Source of the DNA: Flavobacteriales bacterium
GTDB lineage: Bacteria; Bacteroidota; Bacteroidia; UBA10329
Length of the DNA stretch: 35,330 bases
NCBI GenBank assembly: GCA_016124845.1
Contig: WGMW01000061.1
Coordinates: forward strand, 1 to 35,330
Reading direction: 5' to 3'
The position numbers and the translations under genes were made by a program. Under the pieces are notes generated by a model. It did no database searches, was not told the origin of the DNA, and saw only the letters and a list, made by a program, of their open reading frames with translations. Shown here one piece after another: positions 25,310 to 35,190 of this stretch. Each line of letters begins with the position of its first letter. Position 1 is the first letter of the stretch.

Positions 25310-28300
25310 ATGCCAACCCCGACCATTCAAAGATCAGTTAGTAGCGTGTGGACCATTGCATTCGTCATGGTCTGTTTTTTTTCCGCAAGGTCTCAGAACG
25401 CCTCATCTGGCTGGGTTCATGCCATGGAGGATCAGAAGGCCTTTATCGAGAACAGGTCGCAGTTTGATGGTCTGAACAGAACAGACGACCAGATTTTATA
25501 CGCTATCGACCATGGAGATACCAAGATCTTCTTTACCGAAAAAGGGATTACTTATCTGTTCACCGAGACCGAGAAGAAAAGCGAAGAGGAACTTGAATCG
25601 GAGCATCCGGATTGGGAGAAACTAAGCCACGCAGAGCGAGAGCGGCTGGAACACGAAGTGGAAGCGACAACGGATGTTGTTCACATGCTTTGGGTTGCGC
25701 CAAGTTCAGAGTTGAAGGTTGTGTCGGAAGACAAACGCGAAGACTATTACAACTATTCGGTCGGAGATCATTCCATTGATGGCATTCCCGCGTTCAAGCG
25801 GATCAAGTACCAAAATGTGTTCGATGGTATTGATGTGCTTTTCGAGTTCCATCCTGAAGACGGCATCAAATATTCGTTCATTATCCGACCCGGAGCGGAT
25901 CCATCACAGATCGCCATGCGCTATGAAAGCGTCAATGGGCAGCAGTTGGATGAGGATGGCACGTTGCATCTTCCAACGGTTTTTGGCGACATTCTGGAAC
26001 ACGCGCCTGTCAGTTTTTACAAGGATGGCGGCCAAAAGATCCCTTCAGGGTTTGTGCTCGATGGCAACATCATCCATTTCCAGTTGGATAATTATGATCC
26101 TTCCCGATCGGTGGTTATCGACCCTTGGGTGCAAACGCCAACGTTGGCAAGCTCAAACAGTGTTTGGGAATGTGACGTAGATCAATCCAGCAACGTTTAC
26201 ATCATTGGAGGGGAAAATCCGCTTAAGTTGTTGAAATACAACTCAGGCGGTGCGTTGCAATGGACCTTCTCCACCGCCTATGACACGGTGGGTGGCGATT
26301 GGCTGGGATGTATGGCAACGGATTTCAATGGCAACAGTTTTGTGTCCAACGGTTCAAGTGCCGCATTGACCAAAGTAAACTCGGCCGGTTCGCAGCAGTT
26401 CAACGTGAACGGTGCCGGGCTGAGTGACGAGTACTGGACGATCTCATTCAACTGCGATCAGACAAAGTTGATCATCGGGGGAACTACTGCATCGGGCCTG
26501 TTCGACCTGAAAGCCGGTATTTTCGATGTCAGTCCGTCTAATGGAAGCATTCTGAACACGCAGGCGGTTGCAATAGGCAGTACGACTTCTTTCCCGCCAA
26601 CGGTCCAAGAGGTTCGCTCGCTATCGCCAAGTAAAAATTCGCGATACTATTTCTTGACGCATGACACCATTGGAGCGATCGATCAGAGTTTTTCCCCGTG
26701 CTATAGCGGTGAGCCCATCTTCAAGGAAGATCATGGCTATCACCTTGGTTACAAGATGGAGAATTATCGTCCCAATAACGGCAATGCCGGGATCCGGGCC
26801 ATCCGCGCCAACGACAGTTTTGTGTATACCCACAATGGAACGACAGTGCATAAACGGTCGTTGATCAATGGTGCAATACTCGGCAGCGCAACCATACCTG
26901 GCGGTCAGTCCTCTACAAGTTTGGGTTTGAATGTGATCAGCAACTGCGGCATTGATATCGATGATTGCGGGAATGTGTACGTGGGCTCAACAAATGGTGT
27001 TTACAAGTACGATGCGAACCTGAACCTGATCACATCCTCCTCCACCAGTTTTAAAGTGTATGCCGTAAAGGTGAACTATAATGGTGAGGTGGTGGCCTGC
27101 GGCTCGACCGGCACCAATGCTGACGTGAACAGGACCGGTTACGTACAATCGTTGGCCATGAGTGCCTGTGCGCCATTGGAGAATATTTGCTGCGACCCGA
27201 ACATCTGTCCTGCGGGGCCATTCTGCCAAACAGACGCACCCGTTACGCTAACCGCGGGAGACCCCGGTGGCGTTTGGGCCGGAGATGGAATTACCAATTC
27301 CTCTACGGGTGTTTTCGACCCATCAGTGGCAGGCCCAGGCGTGCATACCATCAGTTACACACTTCCTTGTGGAGCCGATTCCATTTACATTTCAGTAAGT
27401 GCCTGTACTCCTTTGGAAGTCTGCCTCGAGAACAACGGGGATCTCACAGTTCTCAACGGAACAGGGCCGTACACATGGGATGAATGGGTTACCGGAATTT
27501 CCACCCCCATTACCAATCAAGCTGAGTGTGAAGCATGTGGTTACACATGGGTTCCATTTGTCAACACGTGTTCGGGAGGAACCACTTGTGCAAGCTCAGC
27601 TGGCTGGTCCAATTTTGCCACAGGAACTACGGTCACACCAACCAATTATCCTGTCCGAGTGGTGGATGCCGTTGGCGATTCGCTGGTGATAAATGACCCG
27701 AACACCTTGACGCCATGTACCCAATGCGCGCTGCCAACGGTTACCTACACTACGCAGGATCCTGCATGCGAGGGCGGTGCAGATGGTTCCATCGATCTGA
27801 CGGTAACGGGGGCTTCCACCTACGATTTTGCTTGGGATAATTCGGCCACTACTGAGGACATCAGTAACCTGACCGCAGGAGGCTACCAAGTGACCATCAC
27901 CGATCAGACCGACCAGACCTGCGATACCACATTTACCGTTACACTGAATGACGGTACGTCCCCGACCATTTCGGGCATTAGCATTACAGACGCTTCCTGC
28001 GGTAATGCGGATGGCCAGATAGATGTAACGGCTGCAACGGCCACACAGTTCAGTTCGGATGGCGGAACGAATTTTCAAGCAAGCGGCAGCTTTCCGGCTT
28101 TGGCTGCCGGTTCGTATGATATTGTTGTGGAAGACGCCAACGGCTGTCAGGCCGATTCCACGGTTTCCGTCAATAACGCCAACGGACCGAGCATCGATAA
28201 CCTCGCCTCAACCGACCCTAACTGTGGGGCAAGCGATGGTACCATCGACATTACAGCAAGTGGCGGAGCAACTCCGTTGCAATACAGTATCGACAATGGG

Positions 28301-30340
28301 GTCACATTCCAATCTTCAGGCTCATTTACAGGGTTGAACGCAGGCAGTTTTGATATTGTGGTGGAGGATGCAAATGGTTGTCAGGCGGTGGATCAGATCG
28401 ATCTGAACAGCAGCGGTGGCCCGACCATCGATAACGTTTCAACCACCGATGCAACCTGTGGTGTTTCCAACGGACAGATCGACATTACAGCATCAGGCGG
28501 TACGCCTCCGTTGTCTTATAGCATCGACAATGGAACAACCACGCAAACCACTTCCAGTTTTACGGGGCTGGCTGCTGGAACGTATGATGTAGTGGTGGAT
28601 GACGGGCAGGGCTGTCCGGCCACGCAGCAGGTGACGTTGAACAGTTCGGGTGGCGCGACCATCGACAATGTGGCGGTAACGGATGCAACCTGTGGTCAGG
28701 CCGATGGTCAGATAGACATTACCGCAAGCGGTGGAACAGCTCCATTGCAGTACAGTACAGACAATGGTCTGACCTTCCAGAACGGTTCGCAATTCACGGG
28801 TCTTTTGGCAGGAAACTACGACCTCGTGGTAGAAGATGCAAGCGGTTGCCAGACCACGCAATCGGCCTCGGTGGCCAATGGCGGTGCTCCTACCATTTCC
28901 AGCATCACACCAACAGATGCGCTTTGCAAAGGCGACTGCAATGGCAGCATTGATGTGGTTGCCGTGGGTGCCACACAATACAGCATCGACAATGGAACCA
29001 CCTTTCAGGCAACGGGAACCTTTACAGGGATCTGCGCAGGAACCTACGATGTAGTGGTGGACGATGGCGCGGGCTGTCAGGCATTTGGTCAGGCAGTTGT
29101 GGGTGAACCCGCTGCGGTCACGGCAAGCTCCACGTCAACAGATGCCACCTGTTCGGGCGCATGCGATGGAACAATTACGGTGAATGCAGGAGGTGGTGTT
29201 TCTCCATATCAGTATAGCATCGACAACGGCTCCAGTTTCCAAGGTTCCGGAAACTTTGCTTCGGTGTGCGATGGTAGCTATTCTATCGTGGTGGAAGACG
29301 CCAACGGTTGTCAGCAGACGGCCAATGAAACGGTCAACGTTCCGAACCCGATCACATTCAATTTCTCAACGGTGGATGTCACCTGTTTCAATGATTGCGA
29401 TGGCTCGGCCTCCGTTACGGTGGCTGGAGGAACTTCGCCCTATTCGTACAGTTGGTCGAGCCTTACAGGAACGGGTTCTACTCAGAGCGCGGTCTGTGCC
29501 GGAACGTACACACTTACCATTACGGATGATAGCGGATGTAGCGTTGACACCACATTCCAGATAACGCAGCCTGCCTTGGTTGCCATTGAGAATGTGCTGG
29601 TAACAGCAGAAGGATGCGAAGGCGACTGCGATGGAAGTATCATTATCCAGTCATCAGCAGCCAATGCTTTCAGTATTGATGGTGGCGATACATTTGAACC
29701 CACAGCCGATTTCCTCGATCTGTGTTCGGGAGATTACGCCATTATGGTTCTGGATACCATAAGCGGTTGCGGAAATTCAGATTCAGTTGCCGTGGCTCCT
29801 GGAGCGCATGTGGTGTCCGATTTCGTGCCGCGACCAGATGTAGTGAGCGAATTCGATTCGGAGATCCTGTTCGACAATAACTCCATCGGGGCAACAATGT
29901 ACGAGTGGCATTTCGGTGATGAGAACTTCTCGTATGATGAGAATCCGAGCTACGATTTCCAAAATGAGCCGGGAACGTATCTGGTGTGTTTGGTGGCAGA
30001 TAACGGACTGGGTTGCATTGATACCTCCTGCAAGTATGTGGATGTGACACCGATTTTCACCATTTACGTTCCGAACGCATTCACCCCAGATGTCACCACG
30101 GGCAAGAATGATGTCTTTTTACCCATCATTGGTGGCGATTATCCTGACACGTATCACCTCCAGATCTTTGACCGTTGGGGTGAGCGGGTATTTGAAACCA
30201 ACAACATTGATACGGGTTGGGACGGCACCTACAAGGACAAGCAAGTGCAGAAAGGGGTCTATGTGTGGATGATCGAAGTGGAGAAGGTCGAAGGTGGCTT
30301 CAACCGCAAGTTCGTAGGGCACGTTTCGGTGGTGAGATGA
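25310..30340 (+). CDS. Giant T9SS type B-exported surface protein with SprB repeats and PKD domain
   Basis: 1676 residues. An N-terminal signal peptide (about 1-28, ending FFSARSQ) leads into a conserved N-terminal domain starting KAFIENRSQFDG (about 45-270), of the kind found in many Bacteroidota surface proteins. Residues about 275-610 are beta-propeller-like (GNSFVSNGSSAALTKVNS). An Ig-like segment (about 625-700, GGVWAGDGITNSSTGVFDPS) and a cysteine-rich stretch (about 705-815) follow. Nine SprB-type repeats span 820-1487. A PKD-like domain (about 1505-1583, YEWHFGDE) and a gliding-motility-type CTD (about 1585-1676, IYVPNAFTPD and QIFDRWGERVFE) finish the protein. The CTD directs export by the type IX system and surface attachment. 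It is probably an adhesin or gliding-related filament; its partner is unknown. It is transcribed alone. Confidence 0.9.
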   Translation: MPTPTIQRSVSSVWTIAFVMVCFFSARSQNASSGWVHAMEDQKAFIENRSQFDGLNRTDDQILYAIDHGDTKIFFTEKGITYLFTETEKKSEEELESEHPDWEKLSHAERERLEHEVEATTDVVHMLWVAPSSELKVVSEDKREDYYNYSVGDHSIDGIPAFKRIKYQNVFDGIDVLFEFHPEDGIKYSFIIRPGADPSQIAMRYESVNGQQLDEDGTLHLPTVFGDILEHAPVSFYKDGGQKIPSGFVLDGNIIHFQLDNYDPSRSVVIDPWVQTPTLASSNSVWECDVDQSSNVYIIGGENPLKLLKYNSGGALQWTFSTAYDTVGGDWLGCMATDFNGNSFVSNGSSAALTKVNSAGSQQFNVNGAGLSDEYWTISFNCDQTKLIIGGTTASGLFDLKAGIFDVSPSNGSILNTQAVAIGSTTSFPPTVQEVRSLSPSKNSRYYFLTHDTIGAIDQSFSPCYSGEPIFKEDHGYHLGYKMENYRPNNGNAGIRAIRANDSFVYTHNGTTVHKRSLINGAILGSATIPGGQSSTSLGLNVISNCGIDIDDCGNVYVGSTNGVYKYDANLNLITSSSTSFKVYAVKVNYNGEVVACGSTGTNADVNRTGYVQSLAMSACAPLENICCDPNICPAGPFCQTDAPVTLTAGDPGGVWAGDGITNSSTGVFDPSVAGPGVHTISYTLPCGADSIYISVSACTPLEVCLENNGDLTVLNGTGPYTWDEWVTGISTPITNQAECEACGYTWVPFVNTCSGGTTCASSAGWSNFATGTTVTPTNYPVRVVDAVGDSLVINDPNTLTPCTQCALPTVTYTTQDPACEGGADGSIDLTVTGASTYDFAWDNSATTEDISNLTAGGYQVTITDQTDQTCDTTFTVTLNDGTSPTISGISITDASCGNADGQIDVTAATATQFSSDGGTNFQASGSFPALAAGSYDIVVEDANGCQADSTVSVNNANGPSIDNLASTDPNCGASDGTIDITASGGATPLQYSIDNGVTFQSSGSFTGLNAGSFDIVVEDANGCQAVDQIDLNSSGGPTIDNVSTTDATCGVSNGQIDITASGGTPPLSYSIDNGTTTQTTSSFTGLAAGTYDVVVDDGQGCPATQQVTLNSSGGATIDNVAVTDATCGQADGQIDITASGGTAPLQYSTDNGLTFQNGSQFTGLLAGNYDLVVEDASGCQTTQSASVANGGAPTISSITPTDALCKGDCNGSIDVVAVGATQYSIDNGTTFQATGTFTGICAGTYDVVVDDGAGCQAFGQAVVGEPAAVTASSTSTDATCSGACDGTITVNAGGGVSPYQYSIDNGSSFQGSGNFASVCDGSYSIVVEDANGCQQTANETVNVPNPITFNFSTVDVTCFNDCDGSASVTVAGGTSPYSYSWSSLTGTGSTQSAVCAGTYTLTITDDSGCSVDTTFQITQPALVAIENVLVTAEGCEGDCDGSIIIQSSAANAFSIDGGDTFEPTADFLDLCSGDYAIMVLDTISGCGNSDSVAVAPGAHVVSDFVPRPDVVSEFDSEILFDNNSIGATMYEWHFGDENFSYDENPSYDFQNEPGTYLVCLVADNGLGCIDTSCKYVDVTPIFTIYVPNAFTPDVTTGKNDVFLPIIGGDYPDTYHLQIFDRWGERVFETNNIDTGWDGTYKDKQVQKGVYVWMIEVEKVEGGFNRKFVGHVSVVR
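27767..29770 (+). repeat. Nine SprB-type repeats within the giant T9SS protein
   Basis: Each unit of about 70-85 residues runs from a 'C-x3/4-(D/N)G(S/Q/T)I' opening to a closing 'GxY..v..D..GC'. First cysteines occur in CEGGADGSI, CGNADGQI, CGASDGTI, CGVSNGQI, CGQADGQI, CKGDCNGSI, CSGACDGTI, CFNDCDGSA and CEGDCDGSI. Repeats 1-5 have two cysteines in the unit; repeats 6-9 have four. Repeats 3-5 are the most alike in both protein and DNA, pointing to recent duplication. Confidence 0.9.
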
Positions 30341-30453: not shown

Positions 30454-32091
30454 ATGGGCATTCCGCTTCAAGTCGCGACCGATAGGCCGCAACAGACCGA
30501 AACATTCATCCGATCATTTCTTGATGCATCGCGCATCAGAGTTCAGGTTGCAGAATCGGAACTGGGCCGTGTTCCCGCCACAGGCGGATGCGTGATCCTT
30601 GGTAACCGATTGTTCGGACCTGCCGACCCCATTCTCCTCATCCATGCCATCTCATCAGTGCGGAAGGATGTGGTCGTGCTCACATCTTACAACTTCAGAG
30701 CATATCCCGAATTGCAGGACTGCATAACGTTTTTGAACATTGAAGACACCGAAGAGAAGCTGCTGCTTCAGTTCGAGGCATTGCTAAAGAAAGACAAAGT
30801 GGTGGTTGTGTTTCCTGCGCGGCAGGGAACCATCAGCCGCATAACGGCCAATATTGCCTTGGACAAACGCTGGCATCCGAAGTTGCTGAAGGTGCTTTTC
30901 CTCCTGCGTCAGCCCATCATTCCCGTTTATCTGCGTACCGATTCCATCATCAGTCTCGTTCATTCCAAAACGTTCTCTTTCGATAGGATGACCTCCTTTT
31001 TCAAGGACTTGAATGCGAAAGAAAAGAACGTCAACATCCGCATTGGCAAGCCGATAACCGATGAGGTGAAACGCACGTTCTTCCGTGCCGATCATTTCGG
31101 GAGATATGTTCGCGCCAAGCTCTATGCGCTGGGAAGTCCGTTGCAAGTGAATGCCTTCTTTTCGGCTACGCGGAATTCGCAAAGCATGGTGGAGCGGCAA
31201 CCGATAGGAACGGCCATTGACGGGGCTATTTTGGAGAAGGAATTGGCTGCGCTGCCATCCAAAAACCGTTTGCTGTCGCAAGGAAACTTTGATGTGCTGA
31301 TAGCCGCAGCGCAAAGTGTGCCGATGACATTGAAGGAGATCGGACGGCAGCGCGAGATCACCTTCCGAACGGTTGGAGAAGGAACAGGCGAAGCCTTGGA
31401 CCTGGATGAGTACGACATGTACTACCATCAACTCATTCTTTGGGACAGGGAAGCGCGCAAGATAGCAGGAGGTTACCGCATCGGGTTCGGACACGAGATC
31501 ATGGAACTGTACGGCAAGCGCGGGTTCTACCTGCATTCGCTGTTCAAGTTCAAGCGGCCGTTCAATAAGATATTGGAGCAATCCATTGAGCTGGGAAGAT
31601 CTTACGTGACACCCGAATACCAAAAGGCGCGCCTGCCGCTTTTCCTGCGTTGGAAAGGCATTCTGGCCGTGCTGCTGCAAAACCTCGGTTACCGCTACCT
31701 CATCGGTCCTGTCAGCATCAGCAACGAGTATTCGAGCTTCTCGCGGCAGCTCATCGTGGCCTTTATCAAGAAGTATTACTGGAACACGGATCTGGCGCAG
31801 CACGTGAAGCCGCGCAAGGCATTCCGACCTGCCAAACGCGACCTCGACATCGAGGCCATTGTGGATCAACTCGGGCAGGAAATGACGGAGATAGACCGCG
31901 TGATCGAGGAAGTGGAGCCACACAATTTCAAGCTGCCTGTGCTCATCAAAAAGTACATCAAGCAGGAGGCGAAGATCATCGGGTTCAATGTCGATCCGAG
32001 CTTCTCGAACGTATTGGACGGACTCATTCTCCTCGATATGATGGACATTCCGATCGAGACATTGGAAAACCTGAACCGCGACCTGAACTGA
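30454..32091 (+). CDS. OlsF/GlsB-like N-acyltransferase with degenerate N-terminal PlsC-like domain
   Basis: 545 residues. Residues about 25-235 align in layout with a lysophospholipid (PlsC) acyltransferase domain, but motif I reads NRLFGPAD (51-58): the catalytic His of HX4D is Arg, and the motif III region reads PARQGTISR (121-129) without the usual Glu-Gly. Residues about 300-475 are a GNAT-type N-acyltransferase like OlsB and GlsB: DEYDMYYHQLILWDREARKIAGGYRIG, ELGRSYV and YRYLIGPVSISNEYSSFS. A helical tail (about 485-545) ends the protein. OlsB, OlsF and GlsB enzymes N-acylate ornithine or glycine with 3-hydroxy-fatty acyl-ACP to make membrane lipids. The gene is followed one base later by an intact PlsC, which could supply the O-acylation. 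Which amino acid is used cannot be read from the sequence. Confidence 0.8.
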   Translation: MGIPLQVATDRPQQTETFIRSFLDASRIRVQVAESELGRVPATGGCVILGNRLFGPADPILLIHAISSVRKDVVVLTSYNFRAYPELQDCITFLNIEDTEEKLLLQFEALLKKDKVVVVFPARQGTISRITANIALDKRWHPKLLKVLFLLRQPIIPVYLRTDSIISLVHSKTFSFDRMTSFFKDLNAKEKNVNIRIGKPITDEVKRTFFRADHFGRYVRAKLYALGSPLQVNAFFSATRNSQSMVERQPIGTAIDGAILEKELAALPSKNRLLSQGNFDVLIAAAQSVPMTLKEIGRQREITFRTVGEGTGEALDLDEYDMYYHQLILWDREARKIAGGYRIGFGHEIMELYGKRGFYLHSLFKFKRPFNKILEQSIELGRSYVTPEYQKARLPLFLRWKGILAVLLQNLGYRYLIGPVSISNEYSSFSRQLIVAFIKKYYWNTDLAQHVKPRKAFRPAKRDLDIEAIVDQLGQEMTEIDRVIEEVEPHNFKLPVLIKKYIKQEAKIIGFNVDPSFSNVLDGLILLDMMDIPIETLENLNRDLN

Positions 32092-32092
32092 T

Positions 32093-32848
32093 TTGCAAAC
32101 GCTCCGCGGAATTTATCGGCTTTTCGGGTTTCTCATCCTCACCTGCATCTGCATTGCCAAGATCCTCGTGCTTGCCGTTGTGAAGGGAAGGGACGTGAAA
32201 CGCGCCATCAACCTACGCAGAAAGTTGGCGCAACAACTGGTGCGTTTTCTGAATGTGCAGGTTGAAGTAACGGGAACCGTTCCAACGGACGGCATCTTAG
32301 GTGTCACGAACCATCGCTCGTACATCGATTCCATCTGCATTTTCAAGAATTTGGATGCCTGCCCCGTGGTGAAGGCCGAGGTGGGCAAATGGCCCATTAT
32401 CGGTTTCGGGCTGCGACATTCAGGAACCGTTTTCGTTGACAGAAAAAGCAAGGAAAGCAGAAGACGCACGCGTCAGCAGATCGCGGATTTTGTGAAGCAA
32501 GGGATTTCCACTATTGTGTTTGTGGAAGGCACCACGTATGTCGGGCCCGAAACGGGGGAATTCCGCCCAGGTACGTTCATGACGGCCGTGGAAGGCGGTT
32601 TTGCGGTCATTCCTATTGCTATCGAGTTTGAGAAGCAAGACATGGCGTGGGTCGGAAAGGACACCTTCATCCCGCACTTCATGGAGGTTTTCGGCAAATG
32701 CAGGGAATCGCGTGTAAAAGTGGCTTTTGGAGACCCGATAAAGAGCGATGATTGGGAAACGCTGCGCGATGAGAGCCAAGCGTGGATCAGCGCCAAACTG
32801 TTTCAGATGCGGGCGGAGTTCGACCGTGGCTCAGAAACGCAACGTTGA
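32093..32848 (+). CDS. 1-acyl-glycerol-3-phosphate-type (PlsC/OlsA/GlsA-like) acyltransferase
   Basis: 251 residues from a TTG one base after the upstream stop; no ATG or GTG is available and the length fits the family. A hydrophobic N-terminal segment (about residues 10-30) probably inserts in the inner membrane. Motif I is intact as NHRSYID (His74-x4-Asp79) and motif III is present as FVEGTTYVG (Glu145-Gly-Thr). Later blocks are RPGTFMTAVEGGFAVIPIAIE. PlsC enzymes transfer an acyl chain from acyl-ACP or acyl-CoA to a hydroxyl; in aminolipid synthesis OlsA and GlsA esterify the 3-hydroxyl of the N-acylated amino acid. Coupling to the OlsF/GlsB-like gene supports that role, although ordinary phosphatidate synthesis is possible. 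Its 3' end overlaps the converging gene by 18 bases. Confidence 0.85.
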   Translation: MQTLRGIYRLFGFLILTCICIAKILVLAVVKGRDVKRAINLRRKLAQQLVRFLNVQVEVTGTVPTDGILGVTNHRSYIDSICIFKNLDACPVVKAEVGKWPIIGFGLRHSGTVFVDRKSKESRRRTRQQIADFVKQGISTIVFVEGTTYVGPETGEFRPGTFMTAVEGGFAVIPIAIEFEKQDMAWVGKDTFIPHFMEVFGKCRESRVKVAFGDPIKSDDWETLRDESQAWISAKLFQMRAEFDRGSETQR

Positions 32849-34614: not shown

Positions 34615-35190
34615 TCACTCTTTCACTACTTTGCTTATTTGCGGTTTTCCGTTGATAGTGTAAGCTTCAATCAGATACATACCAGTAGGTAGGGAAGAGA
34701 GGTCGGTCTGCCAACGGTTGAAGGAGTCTCTTTGCAGGGACTGAAGCCTTCGGCCAGCAAGGTCGGTGAGCCATACTTGAGTAAGTGGAGTGTTGGCCTT
34801 CACAGTGACCGTATTCTGAACGGGATTGGGATAGATATTCGCTTTAGGTTTTTCTACTGAACCTACATCTACATACCCTGTGTAGGTGTAGTAATAATCA
34901 GTAATGCTGATACAATCTGCACTGTCTGAACTCATTTTGATCCAAGCGTCAATTAACCTTATCTGGTCGGTGATTTTCACAAAGAGGTATTTGTTCGACT
35001 GACCAAACCAATACCCTTCAATATGATCGAGTGTTGGTACTACTACATCCGTTTCCCGACTGTAAAGGGTGACCGTTTGATCTGACATTGCGGTTGTATC
35101 CAGATCGTAGTTCACGCTGTCTGAAACTTCAGCAAATGTTGTGGTTCCTGCGGTTGCTATGCGAGTTTCTCCTACCGGGGACATTTGCAT
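34615..35190 (-). CDS. Fragment of a T9SS type A cargo protein (C-terminal sorting domain, no signal peptide)
   Basis: 191 residues. Residues about 115-191 are a type A T9SS sorting domain: ANIYPNPVQNTVTV, VWLTDLAGRRLQSL, SLPTGMYLIEAYT and a terminal ISKVVKE. The upstream 110 residues (IEGYWFGQSNKYLFVKITDQ) are not recognised. T9SS cargo must first pass the Sec system, yet no signal peptide is present, and a TAG stop lies five codons before the ATG. I therefore read it as the 3' part of a larger secreted protein whose 5' part was lost, or whose frame is broken near 35190-35205. It lies beside other rearrangement scars. Confidence 0.65.
   Translation of the reverse strand: MQMSPVGETRIATAGTTTFAEVSDSVNYDLDTTAMSDQTVTLYSRETDVVVPTLDHIEGYWFGQSNKYLFVKITDQIRLIDAWIKMSSDSADCISITDYYYTYTGYVDVGSVEKPKANIYPNPVQNTVTVKANTPLTQVWLTDLAGRRLQSLQRDSFNRWQTDLSSLPTGMYLIEAYTINGKPQISKVVKE

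Follow-up and report, generated by a model that had tools for sequence, protein, structure and literature searches.

Which cysteines pair with which in an array of SprB-type repeats is the question raised by the protein encoded in the window analysed here, a stretch of 35,330 nucleotides that constitutes contig C61 of a 4.36 Mb genome. SprB-type repeats (PF13573) are very common, with a match in 346 of the 395 genomes of the class, and build long adhesins, the gliding adhesin included. One long gene of the window carries nine such repeats, all with an opening and a closing cysteine and the last four with two further cysteines. The predicted domain order of its product is a start resembling a signal peptide (judged by eye), DUF7948, a cap domain, the nine SprB repeats, a PKD domain and a type B T9SS sorting domain, with a region without a Pfam match between DUF7948 and the repeats. 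The features are as follows.

25310..30340, + strand: whole gene, 1,676-aa surface protein, predicted to be secreted from its sorting domain (ORF call and Pfam/TIGR matches)
25442..26128, + strand: DUF7948 domain (aa 45–273; Pfam PF25778, E 3.9e-49)
27404..27727, + strand: cap domain or 'repeat 0' (aa 699–806), with Ig-like AF2 strands, AB-loop cysteine C705, an FG turn without a closing cysteine, and weak profile matches
27767..27997, + strand: repeat 1, two cysteines, opening C820 and closing C871
27998..28222, + strand: repeat 2, two cysteines, C897 and C946
28223..28456, + strand: repeat 3, two cysteines, C972 and C1024
28457..28690, + strand: repeat 4, two cysteines, C1050 and C1102
28691..28924, + strand: repeat 5, two cysteines, C1128 and C1180
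28925..29149, + strand: repeat 6, four cysteines, opening C1206, A C1210, B C1242 and closing C1256
29150..29383, + strand: repeat 7, four cysteines, C1281, A C1285, B C1320 and C1334
29384..29614, + strand: repeat 8, four cysteines, C1359, A C1363, B C1396 and C1410
29615..29770, + strand: repeat 9, four cysteines, C1436, A C1440, B C1472 and C1487
29879..30028, + strand: PKD domain (aa 1524–1573 matched; PF18911)
30065..30286, + strand: CHU_C / type B T9SS sorting domain (aa 1586–1659; PF13585 54.8 bits, TIGR04131 42.8 bits, both above cut-off)

The array scores 166.3 bits with PF13573, against a curated cut-off of 28, over seven stretches, and the nine repeats are contiguous. The C-terminal CHU_C / Bac_Flav_CTERM sorting domain marks the protein as T9SS type B cargo, and the T9SS translocon SprA_N is present in the genome. 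A PorP/SprF-like carrier gene often adjoins the gene of a type B cargo, though not obligatorily; the genome has 11 PorP_SprF matches, none of them on contig C61, and a distant PorP/SprF-like partner for the window cargo is possible. Counting the array itself, 112 places in the genome resemble it. Two downstream genes (window 30454–32848) resemble OlsF, a bifunctional ornithine-lipid synthase, and OlsA, a lyso-ornithine-lipid acyltransferase, with scores below the equivalog cut-offs, and at 34615–35190 on the reverse strand lies a gene for a 191-aa protein with a C-terminal type A T9SS sorting domain (Por_Secre_tail).

The nine window repeats were made into a profile, which was searched on the open frames of 191 loci (set 1), comprising the window, other parts of its genome, genome stretches that PF13573 or the window protein had matched, and 79 named loci; the profiles and queries behind set 1 were thus related to the window. 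A held-out set of 60 loci was taken from the best PF13573 matches in genomes other than those of the set 1 stretches and scored with the set 1 profile; it excludes frames identical to set 1, though a named set 1 locus could still come from a held-out genome. Repeat matches without an aligned Gly or Tyr column, or too close to the end of their ORF, were dropped, leaving 2,701 of 2,845 in set 1 (144 dropped) and 1,096 of 1,156 in the held-out set (60 dropped). Some stretches of the same genome overlap (e.g. L016/L017 and L020/L021), and a few repeats, in truncated frames, may have been counted twice. Hereafter, C1 is the opening cysteine and Cc the closing cysteine; A is the residue before [DN]G and B the residue four before the Tyr column. 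For neighbouring repeats, TT, TF, FT and FF denote presence or absence of C1(n) and Cc(n+1), respectively.

Bases 27767–29770 run from the opening cysteine of repeat 1 (C820) to the closing cysteine of repeat 9 (C1487). The cysteine table of an earlier note on this DNA, with two cysteines in each of repeats 1–5 and four in each of repeats 6–9, proved right residue for residue, and its opening loops and Gly-x-Tyr turns match the window exactly. A feature absent from that note is that the opening loop is one residue shorter in repeats 2–5 (CxxxDG vs CxxxCDG), repeat 1 having the long loop without the extra cysteine. With four cysteines at each position in nine repeats, perfect agreement of A and B has a chance of 1 in 126, and the pattern in the window alone is thus only moderately surprising. 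Among 3,797 repeats from 251 loci, both cysteines were present in 459, neither in 3,310, A only in 26 and B only in two (set 1: 298, 2,382, 21 and 0; held-out: 161, 928, 5 and 2), so that 459 of the 487 repeats with either cysteine have both. The window pattern is thus not due to chance, and the covariation that the note had described in one protein is general. Sixteen of the 28 discordant repeats have no separate opening cysteine, so that their A is a displaced C1; 11 are alignment shifts by eye; and only one, in L323, is real, with B present and its extra cysteine elsewhere.

A–B is also the strongest within-repeat coupling in the coupling analysis (z 36 in set 1 and 25.9 in the held-out set). 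Couplings 21–48, 22–47 and 19–51 (profile numbering), which link strand B to strand E, form an antiparallel ladder with sums of 69, 69 and 70, and A–B (17–52, sum 69) falls in the same register, suggesting that A and B face each other and form a disulfide inside the repeat. The proposed bond between the extra cysteines is thus supported by their near-exceptionless covariation and by the strand B–E couplings that place them opposite each other, and an A–B disulfide within the repeat is very probable.

In calling the extra pair a second disulfide, the same note implied that the opening and closing cysteines of one repeat form the first, and this part was not supported. In set 1, C1 and Cc of the same repeat were independent (2,701 repeats; odds ratio [OR] 1.5 [1.48], p 0.29), as they were in the held-out set (p 0.11). 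Between neighbours, C1(n) and Cc(n+1) were strongly associated in set 1 (TT 2,204, TF 13, FT 70 and FF 36; OR 87, p 1.5e-40; interior repeats only, OR 236) and in the held-out set (TT 945, TF 0, FT 20 and FF 10; p 1.5e-16), with a pooled OR of 124 (n = 3,298, p 1.4e-55). All 10 held-out Cc losses, which come from five ORFs, were preceded by a C1 loss. When Cc states were shuffled within runs of set 1, 35 double losses were observed vs 12.9 expected (0 of 2,000 shuffles as high), and same-repeat double losses were depleted (four observed vs 14.1 expected). The held-out shuffle gave nine vs 3.6 (0 of 1,000 as high); counted by ORF, it gave a non-significant four vs 2.6 (119 of 1,000 as high), and replication by ORF thus rests on few cases. 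Of 47 interior repeats lacking Cc, 42 come after a repeat lacking C1 (base rate 106/2,945) and three lack their own C1. With one vote per ORF across both sets, interior Cc loss was accompanied by a missing C1 in the preceding repeat in 18 of 19 ORFs, in the same repeat in two and in the following repeat in six. Each of the two cysteines thus pairs, by covariation, with the neighbouring repeat.

Mean-field direct coupling led to the same assignment. C1(n)–Cc(n+1) ranked first of 6,069 inter-repeat pairs (z 11.8 in set 1, 11.1 in the held-out set and 12.6 pooled), whereas same-repeat C1–Cc ranked only 182–829 of 5,256 (z 0.5–1.6 over the same three samples), C1(n)–Cc(n+2) had z 0.4 and a random partner from the same run z 2.8. 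After removal of the four set 1 ORFs richest in double losses, C1(n)–Cc(n+1) still ranked first (z 7.3), and same-repeat C1–Cc climbed to ranks 71 and 162. Spacing from Cc(n) to C1(n+1) is near fixed at 25–26 residues (SD 1.2, n = 3,053), whereas that from C1 to Cc varies (median 52, SD 4.0, n = 3,431). The rule has exceptions. In the pooled sample, C1 was present with the next Cc missing in 13 cases, and 90 repeats lacking C1 were followed by a repeat keeping Cc, many of them with C1 displaced outside the scored C1 window. Among 68 interior repeats with no AB-loop cysteine at all, the next Cc was missing in 36 and kept in 32, suggesting that some Cc are unpaired or have another partner.

The reverse offset, Cc(n)–C1(n+1), was also considered. 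Its OR was 3.1 in set 1 and 7.6 in the pooled sample without ends, and it was strong only in the held-out set (OR 38, 14 double losses; rank 2, z 7.7). L316 and L318, whose arrays show alternating loss of C1 and of Cc, account for nine of these 14 cases, and the other five are two-repeat runs with Cc missing from the first repeat and C1 from the last. Both kinds would be expected from a C1(n)–Cc(n+1) link, although alternating arrays alone cannot separate the two offsets. Direct bonding of Cc(n) to C1(n+1) was rejected. Periodic arrays echo at other offsets as well (k = +4, OR 41; period 3 in L118 and L069). Most likely, to judge from these covariations, C1(n) and Cc(n+1) form an inter-repeat disulfide. 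As a separate observation, loss of the joint pair is itself periodic, at every third joint (about 250 aa) in L118 and L069 and at every second joint in L316 and L318, as if hinges had been set at even distances.

The predicted fold is compatible with this assignment. An AF2 model of repeats 6–8 (74-row alignment) had a mean pLDDT of 97.7 and a pTM of 0.82; its alignment (A3) includes 73 of 79 listed triples, all chosen to keep C1 and Cc, and AF2 is thus no independent test of the presence of these cysteines. In the first repeat of the model, the strands are A 2–9, B 19–26, C 30–32, E 44–48, F 51–58 and G 64–71; Cc (63) sits before strand G and C1 (13) past strand A. Strand A couples in parallel to the far end of G (11–74 and 14–76 in profile numbering). 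Since Cc starts strand G and C1 lies beside its far end, the strand order suggests that C1 and Cc of the same repeat are separated by about 10 extended residues, roughly 30 Å, one at each end of predicted strand G. Covariation, coupling and strand order thus all led to the rejection of a same-repeat C1–Cc bond. Among solved structures, the closest relative is GhpA, grappling hook protein A of Aureispira (profile E 2.2e-77), which came from the profile search; a PDB sequence search with the array alone gave weak matches only. All eight GhpA entries (9flp, 9fls, 9flu, 9flv, 9flw, 9flx, 9fly and 9g8b) superpose on the predicted three-repeat model over 212–218 of 230 residues at 4.0–5.8 Å, with VIA Z of 7.9–8.8, a Z near 8 alone being common, whereas titin, fibronectin and NCAM-type rows mostly need 7–14 Å on the same model. 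Since the superposition spans three repeats, the domain-to-domain arrangement appears to be similar too.

If bonding crosses the joints, the first Cc and the last C1 of an array should be partnerless unless a neighbouring domain supplies a cysteine. In set 1, Cc was missing from 28 of 262 first repeats vs 39 of 2,061 interior repeats, and C1 from 45 of 262 last repeats vs 87 of 2,061 interior repeats; the held-out set showed the same trend (first repeats without Cc, 17/91 vs 8/884; last repeats without C1, 26/91 vs 19/884). The FG window of the next domain has a cysteine in 210 of 236 arrays that keep the last C1 vs 24 of 41 that have lost it (p 9e-6; control window, p 0.13). The AB window of the previous domain has one in 192 of 258 arrays that keep the first Cc vs nine of 29 that have lost it (p 5e-6), the control window for this end running the opposite way (p 0.0014). 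In the window protein, the cap and PKD domains appear to supply the end partners, and the array ends fit the cross-joint model. The proposed links are listed below.

27422..27922, + strand: proposed end link, cap C705 to repeat 1 closing C871, span 166 aa, both cysteines invariant in the 14-row alignment
27767..28147, + strand: proposed link of repeats 1 and 2, C820 to C946, span 126 aa, from covariation and coupling
Other proposed joint links: C897–C1024, C972–C1102, C1050–C1180, C1128–C1256, C1206–C1334, C1281–C1410 and C1359–C1487, spans 127–130
29615..30016, + strand: proposed end link, repeat 9 C1436 to PKD FG-loop C1569, span 133, from the array-end test

The span of 133 residues at the PKD end is close to the 126–130 of the eight in-array joints. 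The cap domain has no Pfam family match; its AF2 model has Ig-like strands with a mean pLDDT of 90 and a pTM of only 0.49. In the alignment with its homologues (A4; 13 of 15 listed homologues, 14 rows), C705 lies just before strand B and the FG turn is without a cysteine. The cap (27404–27727) is also a conserved, cysteine-rich domain in its own right, with C705, C740, C743, C754, C803 and C806 invariant in the same 14 rows.

Two further readings of the window pattern, a stiffening of the membrane-proximal half of the filament and a division into two repeat lineages, were not supported. In mixed arrays, four-cysteine repeats lie nearer the C terminus in only 29 of 74 (mean shift −0.02), and a C-terminal bias was thus rejected; last repeats are of the four-cysteine type in 14 of 353 cases vs 459 of 3,797 overall, and such repeats turn up all along arrays and in varied arrangements. 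When A and B were masked, only two-cysteine repeats appeared among the ten best matches of each of repeats 6, 7 and 8, and they made up nine of the ten for repeat 9. The nearest repeat in another ORF is of the four-cysteine type for 280 of 459 four-cysteine repeats vs 182 of 3,338 others, suggesting that the state is partly inherited. The label needs 48 changes vs 59.7 when shuffled on a 177-row tree that was built from few columns and is poorly resolved, 102 of its 174 inner branches being open. The four-cysteine state has thus switched many times with some inheritance, the tree showing switches but not their number. Among named loci, four-cysteine repeats are mostly from Flavobacteriales (81 of 697 repeats), and also from Saprospirales, Chitinophagales and others. 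Two named loci fall elsewhere. L235 (Glaciecola amylolytica THG-3.7 chromosome, CP034120.1), from a named gammaproteobacterium, has an SprB array with four-cysteine repeats and a type B T9SS-like C terminus, reflecting either a mislabelled genome or transfer. L205, from a MAG named Chloroflexi (RFGV01000045.1), has SprB repeats and a CHU_C-like end, possibly through a binning error.

Three other explanations were weighed against cross-joint pairing. A C1–Cc disulfide inside each repeat, with A–B as a second one that stiffens the C-terminal half and marks one of two repeat lineages, would agree with the covariation of A and B, with the presence of both C1 and Cc in most repeats and with the contiguous four-cysteine repeats on the C-terminal side of this one protein. 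However, C1 and Cc vary independently within a repeat and hardly couple, the predicted fold separates them by the length of strand G, four-cysteine repeats show no C-terminal bias, and repeats 6–8 are nearest to two-cysteine repeats, all of which makes this explanation very improbable. Still less credence is given to the idea that array ends and inherited periodic super-repeats, rather than a contact, give rise to a spurious association of C1(n) with Cc(n+1). Double losses are indeed concentrated in few ORFs (7 of 36 in L118 and 7 of 36 in L069), and arrays of period 2 or 3 echo at other offsets; yet the association was strong in interior repeats alone, was never reached in the within-run shuffles of set 1, held under one vote per ORF and kept first rank without the four richest ORFs, and the held-out Cc losses all followed C1 losses, albeit in five ORFs and with the by-ORF shuffle as high in 119 of 1,000.

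The contact across the joint may also be real but its cysteines reduced or metal-bound, the covariation then reflecting packing or a metal site. DsbA, DsbB and VKOR gave no match at E 1e-3 in this 98.94% complete genome, and VKOR was found in two of 39 relatives, which would suit this alternative. Against it stand the near-invariant cysteine pairs of an exported protein, gained and lost together, and the top couplings, in which neither C1 nor Cc has a prominent His or Asp partner. Moreover, Bacteroidota form envelope disulfides, as between SprF and GldK of the gliding machine, according to the portion of PMC12635249 available to us. This alternative is thus unlikely, though less so than the other two. 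Since Bacteroidota form such disulfides all the same, another oxidant is likely, and how the bonds are made becomes a question in this genome, which is rich in secreted repeat proteins with cysteines but gave no match to a canonical disulfide oxidase.

Returning to cross-joint pairing, we propose the following scenario, which we regard as likely for this array. Each SprB repeat would be an Ig/PKD-like beta sandwich in which C1, in the AB loop at the lower end of repeat n, bonds Cc, in the FG turn at the upper end of repeat n+1, and in which A in the AB loop and B in the EF loop form the internal disulfide of four-cysteine repeats. The covalent path C1(n)=Cc(n+1)–strand G–linker–strand A–C1(n+2)=Cc(n+3) would then trace two interleaved rails, the B-to-F core of each repeat being a rung between them, and the whole a two-railed ladder. 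As successive rail disulfides are only about 25–26 residues apart per two repeats, the chain would hardly lengthen under load, even with unfolded cores. A residue in an extended chain spans 0.36 nm; the stretch limit of the rails would be about 4.7 nm per repeat with unfolded cores, whereas a free 77-residue repeat could reach about 28 nm. The A–B bond would brace the rung and add no rail; in repeats 6–9, it would cut the shortest covalent path between C1 and Cc to about 18 residues, against about 50 without it. The cysteines are presumably oxidised, with a mechanical role in a T9SS surface adhesin. With less assurance, we lean towards extending the scenario to Bacteroidota SprB-type arrays in general, as two-railed covalent ladders in which the G–linker–A segments and the joint disulfides bear the load and the cores lie off the tension path. 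If so, the filaments would be almost inextensible, and evolution could tune them joint by joint through loss of the C1/Cc pair, as in L118, L069, L316 and L318.

The pairing rule turns thousands of sequences into testable structural predictions. It accounts for the near-fixed cysteine spacing across the linker and suggests a filament that bears load without unravelling. It also implies that two cysteines in one repeat should not be assumed to be bonded to each other.

Among known systems, the array resembles the SprB repeat family (PF13573) of Bacteroidota T9SS adhesins in its profile score and in its setting with a type B sorting domain. With SprB of F. johnsoniae, the window protein has only the repeat family in common; the other domains differ, as presumably does the size. 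A contact model of PF13573 is listed in the available part of PMC8078820. No description of cysteine pairing in SprB repeats was found in the literature searched, which included the accessible part of PMC12618676, and the four-cysteine subtype and the proposed cross-joint pairing of PF13573 repeats are described here on the basis of sequence. GhpA is similar to the array in fold and in domain-to-domain arrangement, and the GhpA domains that were inspected also carry an opening and a closing cysteine; it differs in being much longer (5,898 aa) and has 18–26% identity to the three-repeat model. The SprF–GldK disulfide, as described in the accessible sections of PMC12635249, is likewise a load-bearing connection in the same cell-surface system, but it joins two periplasmic proteins rather than adhesin repeats. 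Cross-linked arrays of Ig-like domains in Gram-positive adhesins, such as the giant adhesin of Mobiluncus, are also long, covalently stabilised Ig-like chains. In these, as far as the available text of PMC10619420 describes them, the ester, isopeptide and disulfide cross-links are intradomain and the domains have a flexible linker, whereas in the window array the main cross-link would lie between domains.
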